From Armatimonadota bacterium (GTDB lineage Bacteria > Armatimonadota > Fimbriimonadia > Fimbriimonadales > Fimbriimonadaceae), in NCBI GenBank assembly GCA_016789105.1, contig JAEURN010000006.1, positions 1-64,000 of the forward strand: a stretch of DNA of 64,000 nucleotides, in the 5' to 3' direction. Positions within the stretch are counted from its first letter, which is position 1, and every line of letters begins with the position of its first letter. Positions 22,102 to 47,789 of the stretch are shown one piece after another. The translations under genes were made by a program, and so were the position numbers. The notes below the pieces were generated by a model. The model made no database searches. It worked only from the letters and a program-made list of their open reading frames with translations, and had not been told where the DNA came from.

Positions 22102-23142
22102 TTGAAAGACCCAGATATCATCTCAAATCACCCTGTCGTTTCTCGCCTGGAAATGCTTGTTCGCTCCAATGCAAGCAATCCAATGGTGATTCGCGACTTG
22201 CCATTTAGTGCAGTGCCATTTATTATTGAAGATTTTTATGTAAGAAAGTATGGTAATAAAATCGGACAATACCCTGCAAGACTATATCATTATACTTCGT
22301 ACGAATCTGCCCTTGGTCTGCTGTTAGGTGATGTAAGTGGCACTACCATTTCCCCGGAGGGCCATAATCGAAGTGGCGCGCTGTGGATGCGAAGCGCAAC
22401 TTGGCTAAATGATAGGAATGAGCTTAAAAGTGGCGTCCGAGAGACCCAAAAATTCCTGAAGACAAAGTGTAATGACTTTTCACAGCATTTTAAGCACAAT
22501 ATTTTAGCCAAGTCCTCATCTATTTTTTCATTAAGTGGTTCAAAGGACAGCATTTTCATGTGGGAGGCTTATGGGAGAAAAGGAGCCGGTTGCATGCTCG
22601 TGGTCAATACTCGGTTGTTAATGGAGATAGATCCAAGCGCGGCAATTCTTGCAAGAGTGACTTATAATGCTGCTGTCTTTAGGGAATTGCTAGATTATGT
22701 ATTCCTTGTTTACACACGGTTGTGCGGAACAGCCGGATGGGAGCAATATCAAGAAAAATTGATTGAAATTGTGTTCCCGGCACTGTCTGCATTTCTTAAG
22801 GATCGAGATTTTGAACATGAGATGGAATTCAGATTGTACTGCAAAGAATCATCAAATCAAGTCCAATATGGTCGCCCGCCGGCCTTCTCCTTTTATGCTT
22901 TTGATATCGCAAATCATATCGCAAATGGGAATCATGCTATGAAAGTAGTGAAAAGAAAGGAGTATTTTGGTGGAAATCACTTAATTCAAAATGAATTTGA
23001 GAATCCCAGCGTCAGCTGGCTCGAGCAGATAGTTTGCGGGCCGAATATGCCAACAAGTGCACAAGAGACTTTGTCGGTAGCCGTATGCCACTCACCGTTG
23101 AGCCCGATTGTCTCGCGGTCGAAAAGTCGTCTTAGGTTATGA
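22102..23142 (+). CDS. DUF2971-like protein, AT-rich
   Basis: A 346-residue protein with the DUF2971 pattern: ARLYHYTSYESALGLLL, LWMRSATWLNDRNEL, then SLSGSKDSIFMWEAYGRKGAGCMLVV. The family is common near mobile DNA and has no established function. The start may be TTG at 22102. Base and codon use (many ATT, AAT and AAA codons) is far more AT-rich than the genes on either side, indicating acquisition by transfer. It lies outside the att-bounded island, between the YjbR gene and tRNA-fMet. Confidence 0.65.
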   Translation: MKDPDIISNHPVVSRLEMLVRSNASNPMVIRDLPFSAVPFIIEDFYVRKYGNKIGQYPARLYHYTSYESALGLLLGDVSGTTISPEGHNRSGALWMRSATWLNDRNELKSGVRETQKFLKTKCNDFSQHFKHNILAKSSSIFSLSGSKDSIFMWEAYGRKGAGCMLVVNTRLLMEIDPSAAILARVTYNAAVFRELLDYVFLVYTRLCGTAGWEQYQEKLIEIVFPALSAFLKDRDFEHEMEFRLYCKESSNQVQYGRPPAFSFYAFDIANHIANGNHAMKVVKRKEYFGGNHLIQNEFENPSVSWLEQIVCGPNMPTSAQETLSVAVCHSPLSPIVSRSKSRLRL

Positions 23143-23202: not shown

Positions 23203-24774
<1,572 letters not shown>

Positions 24775-25992: not shown

Positions 25993-28077
25993 CTATACCT
26001 TCAGCGCTTTGAAGATCAGGGACCAGCGCTCGACCAGTTCGTCGTTCTTGAGGAACTCGTCGGCCTTCAGGAAGAGTCGCTGCTTAACGAGAGTGGCCAC
26101 TTGAACCTTCCAACCGAGTTCGAGTTTGATCTCATTCTCCTCGGCATAGGCTTCGACCTGAGGGAGGATAGGCGCTCCTGCCTCCACAATCTGATCGAAG
26201 TCTTCTGAATCAGTTCGTGGCAGGAGTCGAGTCACAACGTTCGCGACCGTCTCCTGAGGAAGCACATCCTCGATCTCTGCGCGAGCCATGTCGATGATGT
26301 CGCCGATCAGGAGCACCCTCTCTGGGTTCGAGGCATACAGCCCAGACTTAAGCGCCTTGGCCGTGCTGACACCAATCGTGTCCGAGTCCAAGAGCACGAA
26401 CGGGAGTTCGTGCTCCTTGCCCATTACGATGGCGGCCACCGTGCTCGCTCCTTTTGCCCCTCCGCAAGGGATGAAGACAAGTTCACGCTTCGGCGCGAGC
26501 TTCTTCTTCCGAATCAGAAGCGTCTTCAGGGCGCTCAGATAGACCTGATCGGAAACACCCTCGACGAGAATGGGCTGGCAGCCCTCAAGCAAAGTCTCGC
26601 TGACGCTCAATCCCAGGGCCGCATGCACGGGGTAGATCGAGTTCGTCGTCTGCTTCGGATTGGTCCCTGCGCGGAGGTCCGCCGAGACGCAAGTTGCTCC
26701 ATCGTCGCCCACGAACACCGCGCGAACGAAGTCGAGGTGATCGGGGTTCACCAAGAACGGTGAATGAGTGGTGTAGACGATCTGATTCGTTTCGGCCAGA
26801 TTGCCAAAGAATCGGAACAGGTCTCGTTGACCAAGAGGATGGAGCGAGTGGCCTGGCTCGTCGAGAAGGATCACCGCATTCGAGTGGCTCTCCTTGCGCT
26901 CCACCAGGAAGATCAGGAAGAACGAGAGGAACCACTGCAGTCCAGTGCTGCGACCCTCAAGCTCAACGGGGTCTGGGCGCTTCGAGTCTGACACCCAGAC
27001 CTTAAAGAAGCTCCCGTCCGCTTGGAGATCAAAGACGTACTCGCCCTGCTTCCACCAGTCTTTAAACTCCTTGGTCAGTCGCGCGGACGCAGACTTAAGC
27101 AGGATTTCTCGCTCGGTCTTGTTTGCCGCGATCTCTTCGAGCTGTTCAGATGAGTACTGGCTGTAGTTGGCTCCTGGATCGACTCCCAACTCCATGATCT
27201 CCTCTGGGCTGAGCTGCACGAAGTCGAAGAGCACCTTGAGAGTCCTCGTGCGAGCCTGCTCTTTGGGTCCCAGATTCGTCCGCTTCATGTCCTCGATCAC
27301 GCGAGGAAGCAGAATCTCACTATCAAGGTTGCCGTAGTTCGAATAGTACGTGAACCGAGGCATTGCCTTACGGATCGTTTCGACCACGCCGTTGACCTCA
27401 CCAGGCTCGCGAGAGAGGTTTGCTGCCCTGGCCTTCAGTCGAGTAACGGCGTTTGAAGCAGGCTTTCCGATTGCCGTAGCCAGTTCCTCAGTGGTGATCG
27501 CGGAGGTGATCGCAGAGCAGATTTCAAGCAACTCGTCCGCACCGTGGTCACCCTTAGGAACCTTGCTAAGGGCTTCGGCAATGGCCCCATCGACCCTAGT
27601 CTTGAGCATGCGTTGGTCTTCATCCGCCGCGACAAGCTTTCCAAGCTCCTGTCGCGCCAATGAGAGAGTCAAGGTCGTCCAAGCATGGGTCTGGCACCTG
27701 GCGCTGGTCAAGTTCGGGAACTCGACGCAATACTCCCCTTCGAAGTCCCGAGACACTTCGACAATGCAGAGTTCGGCTGGCTTCGCTCCAACGTCACGAG
27801 CGATCTGGCTCGCCAAATCTTCGGGAACTTCAAAGTGCGCACGGATGAAGACGGGCTTCTCGTCGGCGTCTTTGATTTCCGCATAGCGGCTTCGCGGATA
27901 GTCCGCGATGGGGTCGATCTCGCCATCCTGGGCGGGGTTCAGCTTCCACAAGGGAAGAAGCAAGTTGGTCTTGCCCGACTCGTTCGTGCCGATCAGCGAA
28001 GTGACGGCTCCTACATCGATCCATCCGCTGTCCTTGACTGAGCGGAAGTCTGTTACTCTGAATTGGATTAGCTTCAT
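25993..28077 (-). CDS. OLD-family ATPase with TOPRIM nuclease domain
   Basis: A 694-residue ABC/SMC-like ATPase fused to a TOPRIM nuclease. Walker A is GTNESGKT (30-37). The signature-like region is EGRSTGLQWFLSF (374-386), Walker B is VILLDEPG (402-409), and the H-loop is TTHSPF (about 437). The TOPRIM part has the conserved Glu in ILVEGVSDQVYL (about 506) and DxD in VLLDSDT (about 564-566). This is the architecture of OLD nucleases and of GajA. It is the last gene of the hsd operon. It follows the PD-(D/E)xK-like gene by three bases, and there is no UvrD-type helicase partner as in Gabija. Confidence 0.88.
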   Translation of the reverse strand: MKLIQFRVTDFRSVKDSGWIDVGAVTSLIGTNESGKTNLLLPLWKLNPAQDGEIDPIADYPRSRYAEIKDADEKPVFIRAHFEVPEDLASQIARDVGAKPAELCIVEVSRDFEGEYCVEFPNLTSARCQTHAWTTLTLSLARQELGKLVAADEDQRMLKTRVDGAIAEALSKVPKGDHGADELLEICSAITSAITTEELATAIGKPASNAVTRLKARAANLSREPGEVNGVVETIRKAMPRFTYYSNYGNLDSEILLPRVIEDMKRTNLGPKEQARTRTLKVLFDFVQLSPEEIMELGVDPGANYSQYSSEQLEEIAANKTEREILLKSASARLTKEFKDWWKQGEYVFDLQADGSFFKVWVSDSKRPDPVELEGRSTGLQWFLSFFLIFLVERKESHSNAVILLDEPGHSLHPLGQRDLFRFFGNLAETNQIVYTTHSPFLVNPDHLDFVRAVFVGDDGATCVSADLRAGTNPKQTTNSIYPVHAALGLSVSETLLEGCQPILVEGVSDQVYLSALKTLLIRKKKLAPKRELVFIPCGGAKGASTVAAIVMGKEHELPFVLLDSDTIGVSTAKALKSGLYASNPERVLLIGDIIDMARAEIEDVLPQETVANVVTRLLPRTDSEDFDQIVEAGAPILPQVEAYAEENEIKLELGWKVQVATLVKQRLFLKADEFLKNDELVERWSLIFKALKV

Positions 28078-28080
28078 AGC

Positions 28081-29499
28081 TCACATGGCATCCCCCTCCT
28101 GTTCCAATGCTTGTGTCTCTTCTTCATCGGCACCTGGAACATCCGCTATCGCCGAGCCGAGATCAACAATCCCATTCGTCTCCCATAGGAGTTGCCAGAA
28201 ACGGTCTCGGTCGAGCAAACCTTGCAAGTCCTTCAGATGAGCCACGAGAAGATCAAATCCAGTTAGCACCGCGAACCCTGAAAGTTCCGCTTTCTTCCGA
28301 AAGTTGTCGCTAAAGGGCAGTTTCCGATCCTGTAGCGGCTTGTTACGCGCAGCCGTTCCGATCAGCAGTCCCTTTGGGCGAATCTCTCGCTCCAAGATGC
28401 CCTTTTGCACCCAGTGGGGAAGCTGTTTCAATCCTTCTTCCCCAAGATGGTCGCCTGCGACACCTTTGACCTCCAGAACAAAGTGCCGCACCTCGTCGCC
28501 ATTCTGAACGCTCACCCAGCCGTCCTCCTCCCCCTTTCCATCTGGCTTGGATACGTGTCCGCCTAACCCAGCCAGAACTTCGAGAACGACGTCTTCAAGG
28601 GATTCGCCAGAGTCGTAAATCAGTCGAAGCGGCCTTCGTGCCGCCGCACATGCAGCCTCAAGATCGGACTGTTGAGCTTGCAGTTGAACGATCTCCTCCT
28701 TGACGAGAGCAAGAGACTTCCTTAACTCTTCTTCATGCGGCAAGATCACCTCGGCGAGCCAACCTGGCTCTTCGTCTCCGAGACTCATGCTGTAGAAGTC
28801 TGAGAGGATTAGTCTGAGCGTCTCCTCTGGGGTCTCACTGATTTCGGGAAACAGCCAGAGGGAGCCGTGCGAGGACGACTTCCTCCACGAACCTTGGTAT
28901 CCGAACTCGCTTATGTAAACTTCGAACGTCAAGACCAGCTTGAGTACAAGGGCATGGTCCGAGCGGCTCCAGGCAAAGACCTCCTCATCGAACCGCACTC
29001 TGTCATCTCCTTTTCGCACCCTCTCTTCATCCCTTTGAGAAAAGTGTTCGGAGGACCTGTACGACCATGTGTAGCGTTGGAGTCTTTGGAGATAACGAGA
29101 CGCAAATCTATGTCCGTAATAATCCGACCTGCGGATGTTCTTTCCCTCGTCGTTCTCAAAGTCGAAGTCAAACCCAGTCCAAGCGAGGAAAGGCCGTGTA
29201 TTCTGCATACCATCGGGGACAGGAATAGAAAGCCTCGGATCGCCGATGACAACGAACTGGCCACCTGGCAGCACCACCTTGCGAAACGAATCGACGTCGA
29301 ACTTGGTCAAGAAAGCACCCCAGTTGACATCTTCCTGGGCGCTGGGAAGCGTAAGCAGGTCAATCACAACCACATCAAAATCAGCAATGTCGGGCAGATT
29401 AAGCAAGTTCTCCCAAGCGCAGCAGGAGATGATCGGGTTCGAAACGGCCAGCTTCTTGTGACCCACAACCAACACCCGATTAATGCTTGATCGCCCCAT
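28081..29499 (-). CDS. Hypothetical protein with C-terminal PD-(D/E)xK-like nuclease domain
   Basis: 472 residues. The N-terminal 100 residues look alpha/beta (VLVVGHKKLAVSNP, FDVVVIDLLTL, KVVLPGGQFVVIGDPR). A coiled coil spans about 255-288 (HEEELRKSLALVKEEIVQLQAQQSDLEAA). The C-terminal domain has a restriction-endonuclease-like order: Glu in LEDVVLEVL (about 302), Asp in EEDGWVSV (about 326), then FVLEVKG with E-x-K at 343-345, followed by LLIGTAARNKP. I recognise no named family for the whole protein. It is placed two bases after hsdR and three before the OLD gene, so it is probably a functional partner of the OLD nuclease. Confidence 0.6.
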   Translation of the reverse strand: MGRSSINRVLVVGHKKLAVSNPIISCCAWENLLNLPDIADFDVVVIDLLTLPSAQEDVNWGAFLTKFDVDSFRKVVLPGGQFVVIGDPRLSIPVPDGMQNTRPFLAWTGFDFDFENDEGKNIRRSDYYGHRFASRYLQRLQRYTWSYRSSEHFSQRDEERVRKGDDRVRFDEEVFAWSRSDHALVLKLVLTFEVYISEFGYQGSWRKSSSHGSLWLFPEISETPEETLRLILSDFYSMSLGDEEPGWLAEVILPHEEELRKSLALVKEEIVQLQAQQSDLEAACAAARRPLRLIYDSGESLEDVVLEVLAGLGGHVSKPDGKGEEDGWVSVQNGDEVRHFVLEVKGVAGDHLGEEGLKQLPHWVQKGILEREIRPKGLLIGTAARNKPLQDRKLPFSDNFRKKAELSGFAVLTGFDLLVAHLKDLQGLLDRDRFWQLLWETNGIVDLGSAIADVPGADEEETQALEQEGDAM

Positions 29500-29501
29500 G
29501 G

Positions 29502-32477
29502 TTAGATCGCGTAGTAAGTCTTCACGTAGTCGTAGGCCTTGTCAAAAAGCTCGTTGTCGTGGTGGAGTTGGTACTTCAAGAGCGCCCGCCGCAGCGACTG
29601 CTTCACCTGCCGCTCGCCTGCATTGGTCGCTTGCCAGCCAGGGAATCGAACCTGCCGCACAATCTCGTCGATGTCGTTGACAACTCGCTCGACGATCACG
29701 GGCGTCTGCTCGGTCTTCACGCTCTGGAACAGGTCGGTCAGAGCGGCTTTGCCTTGAACCGTTGGATCAATGGCAGCCTCTTCCTTCTCAGCGTTGACGA
29801 CTTCCTGGGCAATCTGCAGCAGCTCCTTCAGGAACTGAATGCTGTGCATCAAACCCTTTTCGAACTTCTCCTTGAGGTCTTCCAGCCGTTGCCCAAGCGC
29901 GATGAACTTCGGGTGGTTGCCATGCTTGCGCAGGCGCTCAACGATCTGAATCTCGATCTCCTTGCGCTTCTTTGGATCGTCCTGAAGCAGGATGCTTTCA
30001 AGGACTTCCTGATCGAGAACAAGCTCTTCGAGGTCCGTTCGGACGGCATCGACGTGGATGTTCCGATGGATCAGCTCCAACGTCTTCGCGCCCAGGCGGT
30101 GCCAAACCAGCTTGCCATTGCCGCTTGGCGGTTGCACGGACTCGTACACCTTCGCCAACCACTCATAGTCAGCCGTGAACTCCGCGAGGAACGGATCAGG
30201 CGAGAGAGCTTCCCAGCACTGAGAGAGCGCCGAGAAAGCCGCCGCGAAGGCGTCGCGTACTTCGTTGTTGGGAAGGCATTGCTGAGCGGACACGAGGCCC
30301 TCATATCCAGCGACCGTCCGATCAACGCCTTCAAAGAACCCGAGGCACTTGGCCATGAATCCAGGCAGCTTCGCCTTCAGCTCTGAGATGTTGCTGACAA
30401 CCGTCTGAACGGACTTGTCGTCGAAGTCCAAGGCGGCTTGGATATCGTCGAAGACGCCGATGTAGTCCACGATCAGGCCGTGCGACTTGCCAGGATACGT
30501 TCGGTTGGTGCGGCAGATCGCCTGGAGCAGCGTGTGTTCCTTCAGGAGCTTGTCCAGATACTGGACTTGCAGGATCGGAGCATCGAAGCCCGTGAGAAGC
30601 TTCGCCGTGACGATGATCAGCTTGAGCGGGTCCTGCGGATCGCGGAAGCGGTCGAGAATCTGTTCTTCCTGATCGCGGTCTCGGCGGTACTTCGTCAGCC
30701 GAGGATCGGCCTCTCCAGCGCCAACCGAAATGACAACCTCGCTCCACTCAGGCGGGAGCAACTCGTCGAGTGCCTCCTTCATGAGCAGGCACGACTCTTG
30801 GTCGTAGACCACGACTTGCGCCTTAAATCCGTTCGGCTCGACCTTCTCCTGGTAGTGCCTCGCAATGTCGGCGGCAATCGCTTTCACGCGATTTGGAGCC
30901 TTCATCAGGTGCGCCATCCGCCCTGCCTGCTTGCTCAGGTTGGCGAGGTCAGATTCCGAGAGATCGCTCCCAATGGTCTTGAACTCTTCGTCAATCGTCT
31001 TGCGGTCGATTCGGAGGTCGATCAGTCGAGGCTCGAAGTGAAGTTTGAGCGTCGCGCCGTCTCGGATCGACTCATCAAAGCGATACCTCGACATGTAGCC
31101 GCTCTCGTCTTCCTCAGAGCCAAACGCCCAGAAGGTATTGCGGTCCCGCTTGTTGATCGGGGTGCCCGTCAGGCCGAACAGGAACGCGTTCGGCAACGCC
31201 TGCCGCATCTTGCGCCCAAGGTCTCCCTCCTGGGTTCGGTGGCACTCGTCCACCATACAGATAATGTTCCCGCGGTCGTTCAGGACCCCATCTGCCTCAC
31301 CAAACTTGTGGATTGTCGTGATGATCACCTTGCGGGTGTCGGCCTTCAGAAGCTCCATCAGTTTCGACCTGCTTTCGGCAGGCTCGACGTTCGGGACATC
31401 CGTTGCGTTGAACGTGGCCGTGATCTGAGCATCGAGGTCGATGCGGTCCACCACGATCATGACCGTAGGAGCACCCAGGCTGGGCTGCTTCCGCAGCTTC
31501 TGCGCGGCGAACACCATGAGCAGCGACTTGCCCGATCCCTGGAAGTGCCAAATGAGACCTTTGCGGACGCGGCCTTGGACAACGCGATCCACGATGCCGT
31601 TGACGGCGTGATACTGCTGGAAGCGACAGATCATCTTGATCTTCTGCTTCTTCTTGCCCGTCGCGAAAAGCGTGAAGTGCTCCAGAATGTCGAGCACCGT
31701 CTCTGGCCGTAGCATCGACTCGACAGCCTCTTGGACCTCGTTCAGTCCTGTCTTGATGTCGGAGCCATCTTCGCGCCAGGGTGCCCAGTGCTCCAGCGGG
31801 AGGCCGATGGAGCCATAGCGGTAGGTCTTGCCCTCGGTGCCGAAGCTGAAGACGTTTGGGACGAAGAAGGCGGAAACCGTCTTCTCATAGTCGTTGTGGA
31901 CGTCGTCCGCCGCATCCACCCAGCTCACAGCGGGACGGGTTGGTGACTTGCACTCACCAACAACCAGAGGAAAGCCGTTCACAAAGAGGACCAGGTCGAA
32001 CCGCTTCTCTACCCCTTGAACGAAGGTGACTTGGGTCGAAGCCACGAGATGATTGCTTGCGGGATTCTCGAAGTCGATGAGGCGGATGGAGACGTGCTCT
32101 TGGTTGGCACCAAACGGCATCGACATCTCGCCCCGAAGCCAGCTTATGAACTTCTCGTTTGAGCGAACGAGGCCATCATCTCGGACCGACTGGACGATGG
32201 CGCGGAGCCGATAAATGACTTCGTCAGCATAATCGGGGTTTTGGCCGATTTCAGGGTTGAGTCGGATCAGCGCCGCTTTCACATCGGCCTCGACCATCAC
32301 ATCGGTGGTCTGGCGGGCGAGTTGAGGGCCTGGTACGAAGTGCCAGCCCATGCCGCGAGCCGCTCTCGTGATGGGTTGTCCGCCATAGCTTGCTTGTCCC
32401 TCCGCAACTCCTTGGATCGGCCTACCCGCGAGGAGGTCACGGATATAGTCTTCGACACTATTTTGTTCATTGAACAT
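29502..32477 (-). CDS. hsdR: Type I restriction enzyme R subunit
   Basis: 991 residues from the ATG at 32477. The N-terminal PD-(D/E)xK nuclease is FDLVLFVNGFPLVVGECKSP. A superfamily 2 motor follows: Walker A HFQGSGKSLLMVF, MIVVDRIDLDAQ, DEAD-box-like CMVDECHRTQ, LTGTPI and later helicase motifs (LIIVTAKLLTGFDAP, QAICRTNRTYPGK). It translocates DNA and cuts unmethylated DNA in complex with HsdM and HsdS. An in-frame start at 32498 would overlap the hsdS stop. The 32477 ATG sits five bases after it. Confidence 0.95.
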   Translation of the reverse strand: MFNEQNSVEDYIRDLLAGRPIQGVAEGQASYGGQPITRAARGMGWHFVPGPQLARQTTDVMVEADVKAALIRLNPEIGQNPDYADEVIYRLRAIVQSVRDDGLVRSNEKFISWLRGEMSMPFGANQEHVSIRLIDFENPASNHLVASTQVTFVQGVEKRFDLVLFVNGFPLVVGECKSPTRPAVSWVDAADDVHNDYEKTVSAFFVPNVFSFGTEGKTYRYGSIGLPLEHWAPWREDGSDIKTGLNEVQEAVESMLRPETVLDILEHFTLFATGKKKQKIKMICRFQQYHAVNGIVDRVVQGRVRKGLIWHFQGSGKSLLMVFAAQKLRKQPSLGAPTVMIVVDRIDLDAQITATFNATDVPNVEPAESRSKLMELLKADTRKVIITTIHKFGEADGVLNDRGNIICMVDECHRTQEGDLGRKMRQALPNAFLFGLTGTPINKRDRNTFWAFGSEEDESGYMSRYRFDESIRDGATLKLHFEPRLIDLRIDRKTIDEEFKTIGSDLSESDLANLSKQAGRMAHLMKAPNRVKAIAADIARHYQEKVEPNGFKAQVVVYDQESCLLMKEALDELLPPEWSEVVISVGAGEADPRLTKYRRDRDQEEQILDRFRDPQDPLKLIIVTAKLLTGFDAPILQVQYLDKLLKEHTLLQAICRTNRTYPGKSHGLIVDYIGVFDDIQAALDFDDKSVQTVVSNISELKAKLPGFMAKCLGFFEGVDRTVAGYEGLVSAQQCLPNNEVRDAFAAAFSALSQCWEALSPDPFLAEFTADYEWLAKVYESVQPPSGNGKLVWHRLGAKTLELIHRNIHVDAVRTDLEELVLDQEVLESILLQDDPKKRKEIEIQIVERLRKHGNHPKFIALGQRLEDLKEKFEKGLMHSIQFLKELLQIAQEVVNAEKEEAAIDPTVQGKAALTDLFQSVKTEQTPVIVERVVNDIDEIVRQVRFPGWQATNAGERQVKQSLRRALLKYQLHHDNELFDKAYDYVKTYYAI

Positions 32478-32482
32478 ATTCA

Positions 32483-33652
32483 CTATCCACACACCCAACT
32501 AAGAATCGCACCTCTTACCCTTTGGAGATAGTCTGTGTGGTCCTCCAATTGCTGACTCTGATTGTCAAGTAACGTGATTACTCGAACGATCTCGGCCTGT
32601 TCCGCGACTGGCACATTGGGGATGCGGAGTTGCCGAAGCTTCTCAGCAGTCAAGTGGGCAATCGTGGAATGGCCCGTTAGCTTTGAAAGGTCACCGCTTT
32701 GTGCGAAGAACTTCAGAAGTTCACGCAAGAACTCGTTCAGGTAACAGTCGCTACGCGGTCGCAACCTATGGAGGGCCTTTTGATAGTAGCAATCAGCGAG
32801 TTCACCGTTCCAGATGGCTGCACGTCCGACTTCACCACCTTCGCATACCAAGAGATCGCCTTTTTGAAGCTTAAACTTGTCACGCTCCCTTTCATCAAAG
32901 TGCATGGTCCGTACATCATGAAGATCGAGATGACCCCACTGAATATTCGTATTTGTCAAATATGGATACTGATCTGCAACCTGACGTGCTTTGGGTGATA
33001 GCATTTTGCCAAGTTGGACTTCGAAAACGTCACCCAATGGAACGCTTTTGTAGGAATGTCCCCTGAACTTTGACAGTAGGATGAGTTTCCTGACCATCGC
33101 AAGACTCGCGATGGCTTGGGCAACTTTGTAACGGCAATCCTCGATGCTCCAGAGTAGGGCAGCGATGCGGTGCTGGTCGGCGAAACTGGGCACGAGAAAC
33201 TCGTATTCAGCCAGTTCTTTCCACTTTGTCCGCGGCGAAAGTGAGCCTGCCGAAGTCCCGATGGCGTGATCAAAGAAGGATGAGGAAGCAATTACGAACG
33301 GCAGCAGTGCTGGGGAGAATCGGCTAGAGTCAGCTTCGAAAACGAGAATGTCGCCTGAGCAGATGCCGTCAAAGTCCGCAACTGCTGCCTTCCTCTGATA
33401 GGCTCTACGCTTTCCAAAGAGCACTTGCCCCGCTCTGAAGGTGCGGGTAAAGCTGGTTCCGTCGGCAACGTCCGCCCAACGGGTGATCTTCAACTCACCT
33501 GGATCGAGGTGTTCCAGTCCGACGACCCGCGTCAGTCCCTCCGCTTGCGGGTCTCGACAGGTCTTGTCCACGCAACGAACGACATCGCCAAAGCGAACTC
33601 GCTTCCACTTCGACCGATCCATCGGCGGCAAGGCTTCCAGCTCCTTGATCAA
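32483..33652 (-). CDS. hsdS: Type I restriction specificity subunit
   Basis: 389 residues with two target-recognition domains. The first follows WKRVRFGDVVRCVDKTCRDP and ends with VPSFADQHRIAALLWSIEDCRYKVAQAI (conserved spacer helix). The second begins SVPLGDVFEVQLGKMLSPK and ends with IPNVPVAEQAEIVRVITLLDNQ. The full-length two-TRD layout implies an asymmetric bipartite target. It overlaps the HEPN-like gene upstream by four bases (ATGA). Confidence 0.93.
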   Translation of the reverse strand: MIKELEALPPMDRSKWKRVRFGDVVRCVDKTCRDPQAEGLTRVVGLEHLDPGELKITRWADVADGTSFTRTFRAGQVLFGKRRAYQRKAAVADFDGICSGDILVFEADSSRFSPALLPFVIASSSFFDHAIGTSAGSLSPRTKWKELAEYEFLVPSFADQHRIAALLWSIEDCRYKVAQAIASLAMVRKLILLSKFRGHSYKSVPLGDVFEVQLGKMLSPKARQVADQYPYLTNTNIQWGHLDLHDVRTMHFDERERDKFKLQKGDLLVCEGGEVGRAAIWNGELADCYYQKALHRLRPRSDCYLNEFLRELLKFFAQSGDLSKLTGHSTIAHLTAEKLRQLRIPNVPVAEQAEIVRVITLLDNQSQQLEDHTDYLQRVRGAILSWVCG

Positions 33653-34485
33653 GGCTTCACCTTAGCCGCATGGCCGCTTAATCTCGCAAGAAGTTCGCTA
33701 ATGATCGCAAAGTTTGTCTGGAGGCCTTCGACGGTGAGGGGTTCGCTCTTCATGCTGACGTTCGGATGAATGTAGTTCCGCTCTTCACGAATCTGGTCGG
33801 TAAGCTCGGGGACCCCAGCGCGGAACTTGACTTCCGCGACCACCGCTTCAACAAGCTTGAACAGTTTCCAACGGTCTGAGTCCGCGCCGAGCTTGTACTT
33901 GTCTCGCACCGTCTGGTCCGCAACAAACTCGAAGTAATAGACCAGCGCTCCCTCAAGAACGCTACCCAGAACGGCACTTGCCGAGAGTAACAGACCCAGA
34001 CTGGTGCACTGCCATGCCTCATTCCATCTCTCGACGAGCATGCTTTGGACGGTTCGGTCTTCGATGAACGCCAGTGAAATCCTCGGGGGTTGTTGCGCCG
34101 CGGAACTCTTGTCGTGGACAGGTTCGCAAAAAGACAGAGCCTCCAATAACTCTCGTTTGATATCCCGCTTGAAGCGGTATGTCAGAACAGTGTCAGCCTG
34201 CTCCCCTAACTCCTGCGATTTGAAATATGCGTATTCAAGTTCGCCGTCCTCGTTGTAGTCATAGTCGATCATCGGATCGAATTCAAGTTTCTTGATTCGA
34301 GCTATGATTTCATCCCGCTTTTGATCGGGCAAAGAGGCAGACCGCAATCGGCTGACTGCGAAGGCGACTGCAGTTTCACGGCGCGAATCGTTAACACACT
34401 CATCGACAGGCATGGACTCAAACAACTGGATGAGCTGAACGATTTCCTGATAACCTGGCAGCGATGTAAAGTCAATTGGTTTCAT
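33649..34485 (-). CDS. Hypothetical protein with HEPN/DUF4145-like C-terminal domain
   Basis: 278 residues. The C-terminal half (about 150-270) is helical with VERWNEAWQCTSLGLLLSASAVLGSVLEGALVYYF, resembling DUF4145/HEPN proteins, and contains REERNYIH, an R-x6-H arrangement (R233, H240) as in HEPN ribonucleases. The N-terminal half is unrecognised. It is wedged between the higA-ImmA gene (14-base overlap) and hsdS (4-base overlap), so it is co-translated with the restriction operon. A toxin or RNase role is an inference from the motif and from HEPN proteins in type I loci such as RloC/PrrC. Confidence 0.5.
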   Translation of the reverse strand: MKPIDFTSLPGYQEIVQLIQLFESMPVDECVNDSRRETAVAFAVSRLRSASLPDQKRDEIIARIKKLEFDPMIDYDYNEDGELEYAYFKSQELGEQADTVLTYRFKRDIKRELLEALSFCEPVHDKSSAAQQPPRISLAFIEDRTVQSMLVERWNEAWQCTSLGLLLSASAVLGSVLEGALVYYFEFVADQTVRDKYKLGADSDRWKLFKLVEAVVAEVKFRAGVPELTDQIREERNYIHPNVSMKSEPLTVEGLQTNFAIISELLARLSGHAAKVKP

Positions 34486-35611
34486 TAGCGCTCCTCAAGC
34501 CTTGTGCGCGGCCACTCCAGTGGAAAGTGACCTTCAACTCATTGGCAAATCGGGTGTCAACTACTCCCAACGCTTGAAGTCGTCCAACGACCACACCCTC
34601 ATGGAGATTGATGCGGGCGGCAAAGCGCTGAATGTCCTCGACGATGGGTCTCGGATGGTCCACAAGGAACCGACTGAGTTGTTCTGGCTTGATCAGAGTC
34701 TCACTGGCAAAGAGGTCTGCCTCGCGCTCGATCTCTCCTGACCCGCTGCCATCCTCAGGCGAATCGATGAACGAGGCCTTTTTGCTGTGGAGCAGGATGT
34801 GGCCGATCTCATGGAAGAAGCTGAACCAGAGCTGATCGTTCGTCATGTCTCTGAGTGAGAGCTGGACAAGCGCCTTCGTTGGAGTGAGCCATCGAGCCGC
34901 ACCGTAGAGATGCGTCCCTGACAGCTCTGGCACGAACACTAGGGCAACTCCACAATCGGCGCAGAGCTTCACCAGGTCACTCTGAATCGCATCGGCTTTT
35001 CGCACGGTGAGGTCGCGCATCTTGCTGATCGAAGCTCGGAGCTTCGAGGCGCTATACGGCTTGGTCTCGATTCCTTTCGCGATCCACTCGCCCTGCCGAA
35101 GCCAGGCGTGAATAGCATGGGGATCGGCCTCAAACGCCGCGGATCGATAGCGCCCTTCTGCAACGGCCAACATCGGTTGATATTGCTTGAACGACGCGAT
35201 CCCAAAGAATCGGAGCACTTCTTCTCGAAGCCCCAGTTCCGACTCTCTCAGGGGAATCATCTTGGCCTTGATCATCGCCTCGATCACGGTTCGAAGCGGC
35301 TTGGAGTTCCAGATCGAGCGTTCATCATCGAGCTTCTCAGCCTCTTCTTGTCGGAGGAGAAAGTCGCGATAGGCCGCCTCATATCGATTCCAGAACGTCG
35401 CGGCGATGCCCAGCACACGCTCAAGTCCAAGAGCGGTCTCGGGAAGGATCGGTGCCTTTCCATTGATGATCTTGTTCACCGTTGGAAGCGACATGCCGAG
35501 ACGGGCAGCCAGCTCGCCCTGGCTGATGCCCAGGGCATCGATAGTCTCCGCAATCGTCAGCCCTGGGGGCACGACGACGGACGGATTGTATTCGTGGCGC
35601 GAGTTAATCAT
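34472..35611 (-). CDS. HigA-like antitoxin: XRE HTH plus ImmA/IrrE metallopeptidase
   Basis: 379 residues. The N-terminal HTH (PPGLTIAETIDALGISQGELAARLGMSLPTVNKIINGKAPI, about 16-55) is followed by an ImmA/IrrE domain with the zinc motif FFHEIGHILLH (HEIGH at 267-271) and a downstream EREADLFA Glu. The ATG at 35611 overlaps the higB stop by eight bases. HTH-ImmA proteins act as antitoxins or as proteases that relieve repression under stress. It lies inside the hsd operon between hsdM1 and hsdS. Confidence 0.82.
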   Translation of the reverse strand: MINSRHEYNPSVVVPPGLTIAETIDALGISQGELAARLGMSLPTVNKIINGKAPILPETALGLERVLGIAATFWNRYEAAYRDFLLRQEEAEKLDDERSIWNSKPLRTVIEAMIKAKMIPLRESELGLREEVLRFFGIASFKQYQPMLAVAEGRYRSAAFEADPHAIHAWLRQGEWIAKGIETKPYSASKLRASISKMRDLTVRKADAIQSDLVKLCADCGVALVFVPELSGTHLYGAARWLTPTKALVQLSLRDMTNDQLWFSFFHEIGHILLHSKKASFIDSPEDGSGSGEIEREADLFASETLIKPEQLSRFLVDHPRPIVEDIQRFAARINLHEGVVVGRLQALGVVDTRFANELKVTFHWSGRAQGLRSANETN

Positions 35612-35945
35612 GGTAGTCAACGATCTCGATGATCTTGATGGCCGTAACCTGCTCCCAGTCGAGGCTCCCGTCCTCCTTGGTTGGACGAGGCTCATGAGCG
35701 GGTTCAAAGACGATTCTGAATTTGTTGTCCACCCAGACGGCGAGCTGGCCCTTCCTTCCGCCATGGAGCAGCGGATGGCATCGGGCTTGCGGGAACTGGT
35801 TCATCTGGGCGAGGTTTTCGACGTGCGTCAGTTGCAGCAATCGAGCCGCGGCAAACTCGGCGCGCTTACGCTGCAGCTTCTTCTCCAGCAACTTGTGATC
35901 GTTGCAGAGCTTCCTGATCTGGGCGTTGTCGAACTGGATTTCCAA
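35604..35945 (-). CDS. HigB/RelE-superfamily toxin
   Basis: 113 residues from a TTG start at 35945 with GAGAGGA upstream. The order EIQFDNAQIRKLCND, KLQRKRAEFAAARLLQLTHVENL, RCHPLLHGGRKGQLAVWVDNKFRIVFEP and the terminal IIEIVDYH is that of HigB-type mRNA interferases acting at the ribosome. The 8-base overlap with the HTH-ImmA gene is typical toxin-first HigBA organisation. It lies 87 bases after hsdM1. Confidence 0.8.
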   Translation of the reverse strand: MEIQFDNAQIRKLCNDHKLLEKKLQRKRAEFAAARLLQLTHVENLAQMNQFPQARCHPLLHGGRKGQLAVWVDNKFRIVFEPAHEPRPTKEDGSLDWEQVTAIKIIEIVDYHD

Positions 35946-36032
35946 GCAGTCGAATCCTCTCTCGATAGATATTATAGCCCATCGCGATAAGAAAACCAAG
36001 ACCTGTCACGAAAGTTTCTTTTAACCAGCACG

Positions 36033-37520
36033 CTATAAAGAACGCTCCAGCGTTTCGAGGAGTTCCGCCATCGACACCCGAAGGTCAGCCGAGGATTCGC
36101 TCCAAGACGCGATGGCGTCGTCCAAGCTCCCCTCGCTCTGGCTCAGGGTCTGATGCTTGCCCGCACGAACGTAGAGCGGAAGATTCAGGCTGAAACTGCG
36201 TTCGGAGATATCGCCCAGGGTCGCAACTTTGGATAACCCGTCCACCTCTTTGAACTCGTGGTATGCCTCGGCGATCCGCTCGATGTGCTCAGGCTTCAAG
36301 AACGAGGTGGCTCTCTCGCGCGTCACCTGATCGACGGCGTTGATGAAGAGCACTTTCTGCCTCTGATCTGGTCGCTTCTTCGTTCGGCAGATGACGATGC
36401 AGGCTTCCATCGGACTGTTGTAGAACAGGTTTGGCCCCAGCCCGATGACGCACTCGATCAAGTCGGCCTTCACGATGCTCTCACGCATGGTGCGCTCTTC
36501 GTCGCGAAAGAGAACGCCGTGCGGAAACAGGATGGCGCAGCGTCCCGATTCGGGCTTCATGCTGGCCAGAATGTGCTGCCAAAAGGCGTAATCGGCTCGC
36601 CCCTGAGGCGGGGTGCCATGGTTGTTCCGTCCGTAGGGATCGCTCGACCATCGACTCCGATCCCATTGTTTGATGGAATAGGGAGGATTCGCCAGGACGA
36701 CATCGAACTGCCGCAGACGATCTCCTTTGAGCAGCTTTGGCTCGGCAAGGGTGTCACCGCGCGCGATCTCGAAGTCCTCGAACCCGTGAAGGAAGAGGTT
36801 GATTCGAGCGATGCCCGAGGTGAGCAGATTTCGCTCTTGGCCGTATAGACGGAGCGTTCGCCAGTCCTTCTTTTGACCCTTCAAATGCACGGCGCATGAG
36901 AGAAGCATGCCGCCCGACCCGCAAGTGGGGTCATAGATCGATTCTCCTTCCTCGGGAAGGAGAAGTTCCGTCATGAGCTGCACGACGGTTCGATTCGTGT
37001 AGAACTCGGCAGCCGTGTGTCCGCTGTCATCCGCGAATTTCTTAATTAAGAACTCGTAGGCGATGCCCAGCTCATCCTCGGGCACGTTCCCGAGGGTCAG
37101 CCTATGCTTGCTGAAGTGTTCGATCAGGTCGCGAAGCGTTGAGTCGGACAACCGCTCCTTGTTGGTCCACTGCGCGTCGCCGAAGATGCCCGTGAGGAGG
37201 TCGGGATTCGCTTTCTCGATTGCCCGCATCGCATTCTGGATCGCGGTGCCAAGGTTGGCAGTGGTTGAACGAAGATCGGACCAGTGGGCACCTTGAGGAA
37301 TCTGAAAGCGATGGTTCTCAGGAAACTGAGCGAACGTTTCATCCCCTCCAGACTCTTCAAGCGCCTGCTCATACTCTTCGTCGTAAACGTCGGAAACCCG
37401 CTTGAGGAAGAGCAACGGGAATATAAACTGCTTGTAGTCCCCTGCGTCGATGAGTCCTCTTAAGAGGGTTGCGGCTCCCCAGAGATAGCTTTCCAGGGCC
37501 GACTGCGTCAGCTTGCTCAC
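36033..37520 (-). CDS. hsdM: Type I DNA methyltransferase subunit, copy 1
   Basis: 495 residues. The N-terminal HsdM domain has LESYLWGAATLLRGLIDAGDYKQFIFPLLFLKRVSDVYDEEYEQALEESGG. The SAM-binding motif I region is DPTCGSGGMLL, and catalytic motif IV is LANPPYSIKQW, so it is an intact N6-adenine methylase. It overlaps the second hsdM by four bases (ATGA). The two share order and many blocks but are clearly diverged, so this is not a recent duplication. Confidence 0.93.
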   Translation of the reverse strand: MSKLTQSALESYLWGAATLLRGLIDAGDYKQFIFPLLFLKRVSDVYDEEYEQALEESGGDETFAQFPENHRFQIPQGAHWSDLRSTTANLGTAIQNAMRAIEKANPDLLTGIFGDAQWTNKERLSDSTLRDLIEHFSKHRLTLGNVPEDELGIAYEFLIKKFADDSGHTAAEFYTNRTVVQLMTELLLPEEGESIYDPTCGSGGMLLSCAVHLKGQKKDWRTLRLYGQERNLLTSGIARINLFLHGFEDFEIARGDTLAEPKLLKGDRLRQFDVVLANPPYSIKQWDRSRWSSDPYGRNNHGTPPQGRADYAFWQHILASMKPESGRCAILFPHGVLFRDEERTMRESIVKADLIECVIGLGPNLFYNSPMEACIVICRTKKRPDQRQKVLFINAVDQVTRERATSFLKPEHIERIAEAYHEFKEVDGLSKVATLGDISERSFSLNLPLYVRAGKHQTLSQSEGSLDDAIASWSESSADLRVSMAELLETLERSL

Positions 37521-39034
37521 TTGAGGAGGCCCTCCCTGACCAAAAGCTCTCGCAGCCGATCTTCGGCCCCATAAGCTGCTTCGAGACTGTCCTTCAGGTT
37601 CTTGATTGCCTCTTCGACGGTGATCTCCACCGTCTCGACCTTCTTCTCAACATATCGAGTGATGTTCAGGTTGAACCCATGGGCCTCGAACTCACTGAGA
37701 TCGACAACCCTCGCAACCCCTTCAACGTCCTGGAACTCTTCGTACCACTTGACGATCTGCTGAGCCTGCTGATCGAGGAGGACGTTTTGCGCCTTCTGTT
37801 TCTTGAAGAGATGTGAGGCGTCGATGATAATGGTCTTGCCCTTGCGCTCAGGTGACTTCTTCGCACGGAAGACAAGCACACAGGCGGCCAAGCCCGCCCC
37901 GTAAAAGAGGTTGGGTGCAAGGCCGATGACTGCTTCGAGCTGGTCGGTCTTGAGGATAGCCTCTCGAATTCGGCCCTCGACTCCCATCCGAAAGAGAACG
38001 CCATGGGGCACGACGACTGTCATGCGTCCAGACTTCGGGTGCATCGAGGCCAGCATGTGCTGAACCCATGCAAAGTCTGCCGTTCCATTCGGCGGGACAC
38101 CTGTCTTGTTTCGCCCAAAGGGGTCACTCGACCAGGATTCTGCTCCCCAACTCTCAAGAGAGAACGGCGGGTTGGCAATGACACAATCGAACTGGGCCAA
38201 TCGATCACCATCGAAGAAGGCGGGGTCTCGAAGTGTGTCACCCCGCGCGATTCTGAAGTCCTCGTTGCCGTGGAGGATGAGGTTTATTCGAGCAATCGCG
38301 CTTGTGGTCAGGTTCTTTTCCTGGCCGAAGAGCTTGCCGTAGAGCCGCTTGATGTCCAAGCCCTTCTCTTGGGCATGCTGGATCACGCCGAGCAACATGC
38401 CGCCCGTGCCGCAGGCAGGGTCGTAGGCCGTCTCGCCTTCCTGCGGGTCAAGGACCTCGACCATCATACGAACAACACTGCGTGGCGTGTAAAACTCTCC
38501 AGCTTTCTTGTTTTGAGCGTCGGCGAACTTTTTAATCAAATACTCGTAGGCGTCGCCCAATAGGTCTGATGTAACGTTCTCGTTGCCAAGACTCAGCTTC
38601 GAAAAGTGCTCTAGTAAGTCTCGAATCAACGCATCGGAGAGGCGCTCCTTGTTCGACCACTGAGCATCACCGAAGATGCCGAAAAGGGTGTCGGGATTGG
38701 CCTGCTCAATCGCCCGAAATGCAGACTGCAGTGCCTGGCCGAGATTGGCGGTTCGCTCCCGAACGTCTTTCCAATGCGCTCCTTCTGGAATCTGGAATCG
38801 GTGATTCTCAGCGAAGAGAGCGAACTGGATATCGCCGCTCGATTCTTCAAGGGCCGCCTCGTACTCTTCGTCGAATACGTCACAGATTCTCTTGAAGAAC
38901 AGGAGCGGGAAGATGAACGTCTTGAAGTCGCTGGCATCCACAGGACCCCGCAAAATGTTCGCGGCTGCCCACAGATGGGATTCCAGTCGATCAAGAGTGA
39001 CCACGCGACTATTTTGCCGCATGGGTTGAGCCAT
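37517..39034 (-). CDS. hsdM: Type I DNA methyltransferase subunit, copy 2
   Basis: 505 residues from the ATG at 39034 (the frame is open to 39136, but the extra part overlaps the NADAR gene). The N-terminal HsdM domain has LESHLWAAANILRGPVDASDFKTFIFPLLFFKRICDVFDEEYEAALEES. Motif I is DPACGTGGMLL and motif IV IANPPFSLESWG, the F variant against Y in the other copy. The C-terminus carries a helical extension (VEEAIKNLKDSLEAAYGAEDRLRELL). Both copies look catalytically complete. Confidence 0.92.
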   Translation of the reverse strand: MAQPMRQNSRVVTLDRLESHLWAAANILRGPVDASDFKTFIFPLLFFKRICDVFDEEYEAALEESSGDIQFALFAENHRFQIPEGAHWKDVRERTANLGQALQSAFRAIEQANPDTLFGIFGDAQWSNKERLSDALIRDLLEHFSKLSLGNENVTSDLLGDAYEYLIKKFADAQNKKAGEFYTPRSVVRMMVEVLDPQEGETAYDPACGTGGMLLGVIQHAQEKGLDIKRLYGKLFGQEKNLTTSAIARINLILHGNEDFRIARGDTLRDPAFFDGDRLAQFDCVIANPPFSLESWGAESWSSDPFGRNKTGVPPNGTADFAWVQHMLASMHPKSGRMTVVVPHGVLFRMGVEGRIREAILKTDQLEAVIGLAPNLFYGAGLAACVLVFRAKKSPERKGKTIIIDASHLFKKQKAQNVLLDQQAQQIVKWYEEFQDVEGVARVVDLSEFEAHGFNLNITRYVEKKVETVEITVEEAIKNLKDSLEAAYGAEDRLRELLVREGLLK

Positions 39035-39515
39035 AAGTTCGATTCTGGGCAGCTTCTCGAAGTTCTGATCGAACTTGCATGAGAATCTCTCCAAGCCAGT
39101 TCTTGCCTCTCCAAGAGCCGTCTTTGGCTTGGACACATCCCCAGCGTCGGTCTCCCCAGGTGTTGCCCTCGATCAAGAGCCGATCTCCAGTGGCCAAGAG
39201 TCTCTGCGCCATCTCGTGCGAGCTGAATTTCGCTCGAATGATCTCAAGCATGATGTCAAATCGTCGCTCGGCGTGGCCGTCGAGTCGGTGCTGACCACCG
39301 AGGCGTCTCGCCAGCCATTTCGCCGATTTCGGGGTGTTGGCCCCTTTCACCCGATCCCGAAACTCTCCAGCACGAAACTTCGCGCACTGGTAAGCGTGCT
39401 CAGAAGTGGCGAAGTTCTCACCCCACACGACCAGTGGGCATGGAAACATGTTGCTGAGAAAGAAGTGCTCGTCGCGGAAGGAGACGATGGCGTCGGCAGG
39501 CGCGTGGATTTTCAT
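39009..39515 (-). CDS. NADAR (YbiA-like) domain protein
   Basis: 168 residues: VSFRDEHFFLSNMFPCPLVVWG, SEHAYQCAKF (conserved Glu39), and LIEGNTWGDRRWGCVQ near 115-129 match the NADAR/YbiA fold. Known NADAR proteins act as glycosidases on damaged riboflavin intermediates or remove ADP-ribose from guanine in DNA as antitoxins to DarT-type transferases. No ADP-ribosyltransferase is visible nearby. The 3' end overlaps the hsdM2 start by 26 bases, placing it at the head of the restriction operon. Confidence 0.85.
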   Translation of the reverse strand: MKIHAPADAIVSFRDEHFFLSNMFPCPLVVWGENFATSEHAYQCAKFRAGEFRDRVKGANTPKSAKWLARRLGGQHRLDGHAERRFDIMLEIIRAKFSSHEMAQRLLATGDRLLIEGNTWGDRRWGCVQAKDGSWRGKNWLGEILMQVRSELREAAQNRTYGSTHAAK

Positions 39516-39589
39516 TTCGAATCCACATAGGACTCGCGCGAAGGAAATTAGGGAGAAAGTTTTGGGAGTGCTTCTAAGCCAGTTCAGAT

Positions 39590-39805
39590 TCAAAACGAGC
39601 CACGAAGTGCTTTCAAGAGGTCCAACCGTAGGTCTCGTAGACGGTTTCTCGCAGCCAGCCACTTTGACTTCAGATCGGGATTCGCGGCGATCTCAAGCTC
39701 TCGTTGCAATCGCTGAATGGATCGTTCTTCGGCCTTGATCAGGCGCTCGATTCGGGCGATCTGGCAACTTTGGACGTTGATTTGGAGGTCGTTGGAGAAT
39801 CGCAT
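39590..39805 (-). CDS. Small coiled-coil protein
   Basis: 71 residues from the ATG at 39805, mostly helical and charged (IARIERLIKAEERSIQRLQRELEIAANPDLKSKWLAARNRLRDLRLDLLKALRG). No family is recognised. It lies 75 bases upstream of the NADAR gene on the same strand and could be the first gene of that operon. The 200 bases between it and the primase stop show no gene. Confidence 0.5.
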   Translation of the reverse strand: MRFSNDLQINVQSCQIARIERLIKAEERSIQRLQRELEIAANPDLKSKWLAARNRLRDLRLDLLKALRGSF

Positions 39806-46123: not shown

Positions 46124-46954
46124 TCAGGCCACCGACCCAGCCATGGGGGCGAGGATGAAGTCCACGGCAGCTTGAGCGGAGCTGGCGGCCTTGATAATGA
46201 GCGACTTGTCATTCTTAAGTGCCTTGAGCCAACCAGCGACATACGAGGCGCTCTGTTCGACGTCGCTGTGGATTCCTAGGTCGGCAGTAAGGAATGCGGC
46301 TCCCAATTCGGCCACCAACTCTTCACGGGCATAAGGGTCTGATCCGAACTGAATCGGATCGCATACCTCCTTTCGAGCGAGCCGACTGGAGTGCCCCGTG
46401 GCGTGAACCAATTCGTGAGCAAGGGTCTGCTCGTAGGCTTCGGCAGAATCGAATAGTTCAGCACGAGGCATTACGACCACGTCCTCAGGTGGAGAGTAGT
46501 AGGCGGCAGTTCCTTTCCGATGGACGTCCACACTTGGGCACATGATCTCAGCGAGGGACGCGACCGACGAGCATGCGGACTCGTCAAGCCCCTCTGTAAG
46601 CGGTTCTAGGTTCAAGCCCTCTGTTTGCTGGACGTTGAAGACATAGTAATAGCGGGCCACCATTCGCTTCTGCGTTTCGCTGCCGCGCTCTTCCTCGACT
46701 TCGTTCCAGAACATGATTGGGGTGCCGTGCTCGCCTCGTCGCACATGCCCTCCCAACTCGGACACTTGTTTGAACGTCACCCAGCGAGGATCGGCATAGG
46801 GCTGAATCGACAGGACAAGTCGGTTGATGCCACGATAGTTGTTGCCCCGAAGGTTTCGGGGGGATTCGGCGCGCCATGGCTTTCGCCAAGGGAGAAGACC
46901 CTCGGTCTCGATGGCGCGAATGATGCGGTCGGTGATGTGCTGATACGCTTTCAC
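46124..46954 (-). CDS. ardC: ArdC-like antirestriction protein
   Basis: 276 residues from a GTG at 46954. The N-terminal ssDNA-binding domain (VKAYQHITDRIIRAIETEGLLPWRKPWR, NNYRGINRLVL, WVTFKQVSELGGHVRRGEHGTPIMFW) precedes a zincin-like metallopeptidase with AHELVHATGHSSRL (HExxH) and downstream YAREELVAELGAAFL. ArdC proteins protect incoming mobile DNA from host restriction. The open frame reaches 47026, but that part overlaps an inverted repeat and lacks family similarity, so I prefer the internal GTG. Confidence 0.85.
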   Translation of the reverse strand: MKAYQHITDRIIRAIETEGLLPWRKPWRAESPRNLRGNNYRGINRLVLSIQPYADPRWVTFKQVSELGGHVRRGEHGTPIMFWNEVEEERGSETQKRMVARYYYVFNVQQTEGLNLEPLTEGLDESACSSVASLAEIMCPSVDVHRKGTAAYYSPPEDVVVMPRAELFDSAEAYEQTLAHELVHATGHSSRLARKEVCDPIQFGSDPYAREELVAELGAAFLTADLGIHSDVEQSASYVAGWLKALKNDKSLIIKAASSAQAAVDFILAPMAGSVA

Positions 46955-47010
46955 ACCGCATATAGCTTTTTCCCGCTCGAAGTCAGGGGGAAAGTTCTGC
47001 CAGCGTGTTG

Positions 47011-47060
47011 AGGTTAGAAAATGCACTCCTCAGGGGCGATATGTATGCAATTTCTAACCT
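47011..47060. promoter_or_regulatory. Long inverted repeat between ardC and abiEi
   Basis: AGGTTAGAAAATGCA (47011-47025) and TGCAATTTCTAACCT (47046-47060) form 15-base arms with one mismatch and a 20-base spacer. AbiEi antitoxins are known to repress their own promoters by binding inverted repeats, so this is a good operator candidate for the abiE operon, 112 bases upstream of abiEi, and may also control ardC. Confidence 0.55.
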
Positions 47061-47171
47061 GGTCTACCGCGGAGTGCGGGCCTAATCACAGTCTGTTCTC
47101 GCACGCTGCCGCCTCGTTCACCTCAGTTAAGATTTACGCGGAGTGTTCCGAAACGTAGATAGTGAAGTACA

Positions 47172-47789
47172 ATGATCGACAAAATGGAACACGAGAGGAA
47201 TACCGAGGCGCTGGTGAAGTTCGTGACAGAGCGTGGAGTAGCCCGAACTCGGGACATCGTCGATGCAGGCTTTCCGAGAGTGATGCTAACTCGACTTGTC
47301 AGAAATGGAGAGCTTCAGCGTCTTGGACGAGGGCTGTACGCGACTGCGGATCACCCCCTGACCGAGTGGCATGATCTCGCCGAGGTTGCTAAGGCCATCC
47401 CATCAGCAGTAGTGTCTCTGATCTCAGCGCTTGCGTTCCACGAAATCGGCACACAGGTTCCGCATGAGATTTGGATAGCCCTGCCAGACGGGGCAAGGAA
47501 ACCAACGTATCACCACAAGCTCCGCGTTACGCGACTCTCGGAACCTTACCTGTCTGCTGGAGTAGAAGTGCATCAAATCGAAGGCGTCCCAGTTCGGGTC
47601 TTCGGCGCGGCCAAGACCGTCGCTGACTGCTTTCGCATGCGGTCCAAGGTGGGATACGATGTGGCCGTCGAGGCCCTAAGAGAAGGCTGGCGGCTTCGAA
47701 AGTTCACGCTCGACGAACTAGCCCACTTCGGAAAGCTCAACCGAGTTGATCGGATCATGCGTCCCTACATTGAAGCGATTACCGCATGA
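47172..47789 (+). CDS. abiEi: AbiEi-family antitoxin
   Basis: 205 residues. The N-terminal winged helix (LVKFVTERGVARTRDIVDAGFPRVMLTRLVRNGELQRLGRGLYA) is followed by the AbiEi domain (SLISALAFHEIGTQVPHEIWIALP, VFGAAKTVADCFRMRSKVGYDVAVEALREGW). It represses the operon and neutralises AbiEii. The stop overlaps the toxin ATG by four bases. Confidence 0.9.
   Translation: MIDKMEHERNTEALVKFVTERGVARTRDIVDAGFPRVMLTRLVRNGELQRLGRGLYATADHPLTEWHDLAEVAKAIPSAVVSLISALAFHEIGTQVPHEIWIALPDGARKPTYHHKLRVTRLSEPYLSAGVEVHQIEGVPVRVFGAAKTVADCFRMRSKVGYDVAVEALREGWRLRKFTLDELAHFGKLNRVDRIMRPYIEAITA

Follow-up and report, generated by a model that had tools for sequence, protein, structure and literature searches.

Organization of the Locus

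The window analyzed here, a whole stretch of 64,000 nucleotides of contig JAEURN010000006.1 from an Armatimonadota bacterium, contains an ordered series of co-directional genes on its minus strand, with short or overlapping junctions. Most of the series is a type I restriction-modification (R-M) operon, hsd, and its last two genes, gene X and an OLD gene, are the subject of this analysis. Starting from the upstream end, the genes are as follows.

37517-39136, minus strand: hsdM, upstream copy, with N6_Mtase and HsdM_N domains
36033-37520, minus strand: hsdM, second copy, with N6_Mtase and HsdM_N domains
35604-35999, minus strand: HigB-like small ORF inside the hsd operon
34472-35764, minus strand: HigA-like protein with HTH and M78-peptidase parts, inside the hsd operon (PADLOC PD-Lambda-2_B, 3.4e-26)
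33649-34485, minus strand: gene of 278 aa between the HigA-like gene and hsdS
32483-33652, minus strand: hsdS (Methylase_S; Specificity_I)
29502-32498, minus strand: hsdR (SWI2_SNF2, HSDR_N; REase_I)
28081-29499, minus strand: gene X, a candidate nuclease of 472 aa; intact ORF with ATG start
25993-28077, minus strand: OLD gene, 694 aa, with ABC-type ATPase and TOPRIM nuclease in one chain; intact ORF with ATG start

Gene X starts 2 bp past the hsdR stop. The OLD gene follows X after a gap of 3 bp as the final gene of the hsd operon, and its neighbors are X, hsdR and a serine recombinase. The original prediction, which placed two genes three base pairs apart at the end of the hsd operon, is borne out by the intact ORFs and exact coordinates. 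The start of hsdR is probably the ATG at 32477.

Several further features surround these genes. The tandem hsdM copies (36033-39136) belong to the same type I operon and are 54% identical. Scans of the 278-aa gene (33649-34485) against Pfam and PADLOC gave no match; judged by eye, its C-terminal end, REERNYIHP, is HEPN-motif-like. A NADAR-domain protein (39009-39662) lies directly upstream of hsdM and overlaps the long hsdM ORF, while a DUF2971 protein (22102-23142) and the large serine recombinase (23236-24774) are found on the groEL side of the locus. The window also encodes an ArdC anti-restriction protein and an AbiEi/AbiEii pair at 46124-48649. In the five congeners examined, the region downstream of groEL showed no hsd locus.

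The OLD Protein

The 694-aa protein was originally described as an OLD-TOPRIM ATPase, and this assignment is firm. Its residues 1-443 match Pfam AAA_15 (E 4.6e-20), and a search of the PDB returns the OLD protein of Thermus scotoductus (6p74, E 1e-10) in an alignment that extends to residue 567 and spans the TOPRIM motif. In PADLOC the protein matches the Old, AriA and GajA models. Two sets of active-site residues stand out when 29 sequences spanning many phyla are aligned.

27967-27990, minus strand: Walker A motif GTNESGKT (K36); G35 and K36 invariant in 29/29 sequences
26269-26562, minus strand: TOPRIM metal ligands E506, D510, D564, D566, E601 and E603, near-invariant (n=29)

Walker B D406/E407, H413 and H438 are kept in the same alignment. 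The six TOPRIM residues correspond to E377, D381, D431, D433, S478 and E480 of Thermus OLD, whose metal ligands have been mapped (PMC7049728), with Glu replacing Ser478. Because both the ATPase and the TOPRIM residues are kept, the protein should be an active ATPase-nuclease of the Class 1 kind (PMC10568477, PMC12796447).

As in the Class 1 proteins P2 Old and Thermus scotoductus OLD, an ABC ATPase and a C-terminal TOPRIM share a single chain and the metal ligands are the same. Close relatives mostly stand alone and have no conserved partner, which is also typical of the class; this OLD gene instead ends an hsd operon, and its product is longer (694 aa vs 528 in the 6p74 chain). The OLD gene is thus of a known kind. 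The phylum of the host also includes Abditibacterium: the OLD row of a same-phylum genome (L020) is identical to that of an Abditibacterium contig (L036). In a congener (G154), OLD stands alone, flanked by genes for ribosomal proteins (L023:8141-9850).

Gene X Encodes a Candidate FokI-Type Nuclease

Gene X has no family match in Pfam, NCBIfam, PADLOC or PHROGs, and no match among PDB sequences. A structure model built from six sequences has a low overall pLDDT of 42.6, and the following parts can be distinguished.

28765-29499, minus strand: alpha/beta region, residues 1-245; GATase1-like fold suggested by way of a relative
28615-28740, minus strand: coiled coil, residues 254-295; a single long helix in the model, with weak coiled-coil matches
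28159-28641, minus strand: PD-(D/E)XK domain, residues 287-447; closest in structure search, the FokI cleavage domain
28465-28524, minus strand: candidate catalytic motif D326...E343-V-K345 with D-x16-[DE]-x-K spacing

Residues 301-425 are modeled as helix-strand-strand-strand-helix-strand-helix-strand, and the alpha-beta-beta-beta-alpha-beta core of PD-(D/E)XK enzymes is present at a moderate domain pLDDT of about 45-75. Residues 287-447 align with the FokI cleavage domain with a VIA Z of 12.9 and an rmsd of 3.0 over 147 residues (Foldseek E 4e-5); the next structural matches are the nickase Nt.BspD6I, AF1548 (Z 11.0) and HindIII (Z 9.4). The catalytic residues of FokI are D450, D467 and K469. 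The D326-x16-E343-x-K345 spacing of X is that of D450-x16-D467-x-K469 in the FokI sequence, which was checked against 1fok, and in both proteins a helix precedes the domain. X differs from FokI in having E in place of D467, in an alpha/beta N-terminus and in that no FokI recognition domain is recognized. By sequence, hhalign detects no similarity between the two (probability 0.1%), so that the likeness lies in fold and motif spacing only. On the same ground, X is not placed in the FokI family proper.

Conservation of the motif was scored over 17 aligned members of the X family. D326 and Q359 each persist in 14 of them and E343 in 15. K345 occurs in nine, all of which belong to the X-like lineage; members of the prophage-type lineage show E-x-E-G-K or a similar sequence. 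X itself retains D326, E343, K345 and Q359 in an intact frame. E302 varies among family members and is therefore probably not catalytic. Of the PD-(D/E)xK domain that had been proposed from the sequence, the fold and the residues D326, E343 and K345 hold on structure and motif, and E302 drops out.

The alpha/beta N-terminus proposed for the same protein is plausible, although the model of X is not confident over residues 1-245 (pLDDT <50). A relative encoded in a prophage (L134) was modeled with an overall pLDDT of 76, and mostly 75-93 in its N-terminal domain. This domain resembles class I glutamine amidotransferases (Z about 9-11), and the C-terminal domain of the relative is again closest to FokI (Z 11.3). 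The X-like and prophage-type lineages are joined by profile comparison (97.8%), chiefly through the coiled coil and the nuclease domain. The sequence link between the N-terminus of X and those of the prophage relatives is not significant, and so for X itself we infer the GATase1-like fold from the modeled relative. The N-terminal half of the prophage-type relatives has no invariant cysteine, so this domain is probably not a working amidotransferase in that lineage. X is best read as a candidate FokI-type nuclease in which a coiled coil precedes the cleavage domain and a putative GATase1-like domain stands in front of both.

Relatives of X and Their Surroundings

The X family is thinly spread and unannotated, and this family, not the pair, is the newer element. 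Its relatives are few and distant: among 291 same-phylum genomes, two were found in the first search and four by profile, and 343 genomes of the phylum of a Phycisphaerales genome (that of L042) yielded nine. Others come from some Enterobacter plasmids, reached through L028, and from seven viral contigs. Single-protein scans with X over genome contigs and viral contigs gave no relative, tblastn with X against plasmids and phages gave none, and the searched collections hold no close orthologue.

The relatives are single genes, several of them in prophage defense spots. For instance, the gene in L134 occupies the interval between portal and gpA, and an adjacent gene matches HEC-08. P2 carries old and tin at this portal-gpA site, where E. 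coli P2-like phages keep defense genes (PMC9122126). Another example is found in a prophage cluster (L133:969-7097), in which the X relative is near PtuA/PtuB (Septu) and a PifA-like gene that is broken into two ORFs. A third relative is 154 bp from the hsdR of a type I hsd operon, in divergent orientation (L155), and a fourth precedes a split DNA methylase by about 50 bp (L124). Three others lie amid ordinary or housekeeping genes (L125, L150, L152), and in L157 and L158 the motif is lost. These surroundings suggest a defense role for the family through guilt by association, which is not proof.

Distribution of the Two Families

The OLD set numbers about 90 loci. Close OLD relatives recovered across many phyla by an alignment-based scan account for 80 of them; the rest are viral (four), plasmid (four) or same-phylum (several). 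No X relative was found beside OLD in any of the roughly 90, and a profile search found X nowhere in 46 OLD-bearing genomes. This search was not blind, since the same profile finds distant relatives of X in same-phylum genomes. Conversely, none of 21 loci with X relatives has an OLD-TOPRIM gene nearby; the single match to the OLD profile across them is the PtuA gene in L133. No conserved gene partner of the OLD clade recurs among the OLD loci. These separate distributions, drawn from collections in which many contigs are short, indicate that the two families normally occur separately. The original prediction of a distinct two-nuclease defense module had taken co-occurrence of the genes elsewhere as its test; the outcome goes against the module wherever it was searched for, and the module is not supported.

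The prediction had also set the pair apart from Gabija (GajA and GajB), correctly: there is no adjacent helicase gene, and the pair is therefore not Gabija. An OLD nuclease adjoins a second protein in both, but here the partner has a nuclease fold rather than being a UvrD-like helicase, and the pairing is not conserved. Readings of X as a GajB-like partner, and of the locus as PARIS or GmrSD, were dropped on domain content; in contrast to PARIS (Class 4 OLD), ATPase and TOPRIM are not on separate genes but share one 694-aa chain. Retron OLDs (Class 3) adjoin a reverse transcriptase gene and a non-coding RNA; no reverse transcriptase was found here among the Pfam-scanned neighbors.

Type I R-M genes are near OLD in about 6 of the 90 loci, and in about three OLD is directly beside hsdS or hsdR. 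The order hsdM-hsdS-OLD-hsdR occurs in two loci (L022, L039), and hsdR or hsdM is near OLD in four (L042, L058, L063, L068). On the OLD tree, which has long branches, the R-M-linked members are dispersed, with 7 label changes for 7 rows. A single R-M-linked clade was rejected on these counts, and the scatter points to repeated independent recruitment.

Interpretation of the Locus

The most economical reading is one of stacking, in which an R-M operon has gained two separately acting nucleases. X and OLD would both be anti-phage nucleases, independent of each other, with the 3′ end of the type I R-M operon carrying them as co-expressed cargo; the probability of this reading is put at roughly 0.6. 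From sequence, fold and neighborhood, we infer how each might work. In OLD, the ABC-ATPase would gate the TOPRIM nuclease, which would degrade or nick DNA upon an infection cue, as in single-gene OLDs. X may be a one-protein effector: its N-terminal alpha/beta (GATase1-like) domain would sense a cue, the coiled coil would dimerize the protein, and the FokI-type domains, each inactive by itself, would then cut double-stranded DNA. Together the two proteins could serve as a backup to restriction against phages that evade or inhibit HsdRMS. There is a precedent in TgvAB, a functional two-gene defense housed in a type I R-M cluster (PMC11411939), which resembles this locus in its two extra genes; unlike X and OLD, in which no such domain was found, TgvAB is related to the type IV restriction system GmrSD.

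Some observations weigh against this reading. The 2- and 3-bp spacings would suit a complex of the two proteins equally well, and X is without a close orthologue, so that a recent, lineage-specific partnership of X with OLD would lie beyond the evidence of conservation. The GATase1-like N-terminus was modeled on a relative and not on X, and the family includes the members amid ordinary genes and those that have lost the motif.

An alternative that deserves some weight, though it is unlikely, makes X, OLD or both accessory subunits of the type I R-M complex; OLD, for example, might resect the ends left by HsdR or sense anti-restriction proteins as a backup. This would fit the hsd-linked OLD loci described above, the X relative beside hsdR in L155 and the presence of an ArdC gene in the window, and a backup-effector role around BREX has been proposed for OLD ATPases partnered by TOPRIM or PD-(D/E)XK proteins (PMC12839542). 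However, such neighborhoods make up a small and phylogenetically scattered fraction of the OLD loci, and defense genes gather in islands anyway.

It is improbable that X and OLD form one two-component system, in which OLD gates X or takes the DNA ends that X makes, in a manner similar to GajA/GajB. The 3-bp gap and the shared operon end speak for such a system, as do published cases, near BREX and R-M-like systems, in which an OLD-ABC ATPase is accompanied by a PD-(D/E)XK nuclease (PMC12839542). In those cases both protein types are also found beside a restriction system, but the alternative nuclease replaces TOPRIM, whereas the OLD protein here keeps its own. The pair was found nowhere else in the searched loci and genomes, close relatives of OLD have no conserved partner, and the relatives of X are single genes. 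Also improbable is a lineage-specific two-nuclease relay, in which the amidotransferase-like domain of X senses a cue, X cuts in the manner of FokI and OLD degrades from the ends, with both tied to the co-transcribed R-M complex. That X is an ordinary enzyme of DNA metabolism or a decaying gene, in its operon by accident, is very improbable: housekeeping surroundings or a lost motif in some relatives would agree with it, but X keeps its motif residues and frame intact and several relatives sit among known defense genes.

The locus strengthens the case that type I R-M operons accumulate additional defense genes. The X family combines a FokI-type nuclease with a coiled coil and, as modeled in a relative, an amidotransferase-like domain. 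If X defends its host, it would be a single-gene anti-phage nuclease with an unusual sensor.
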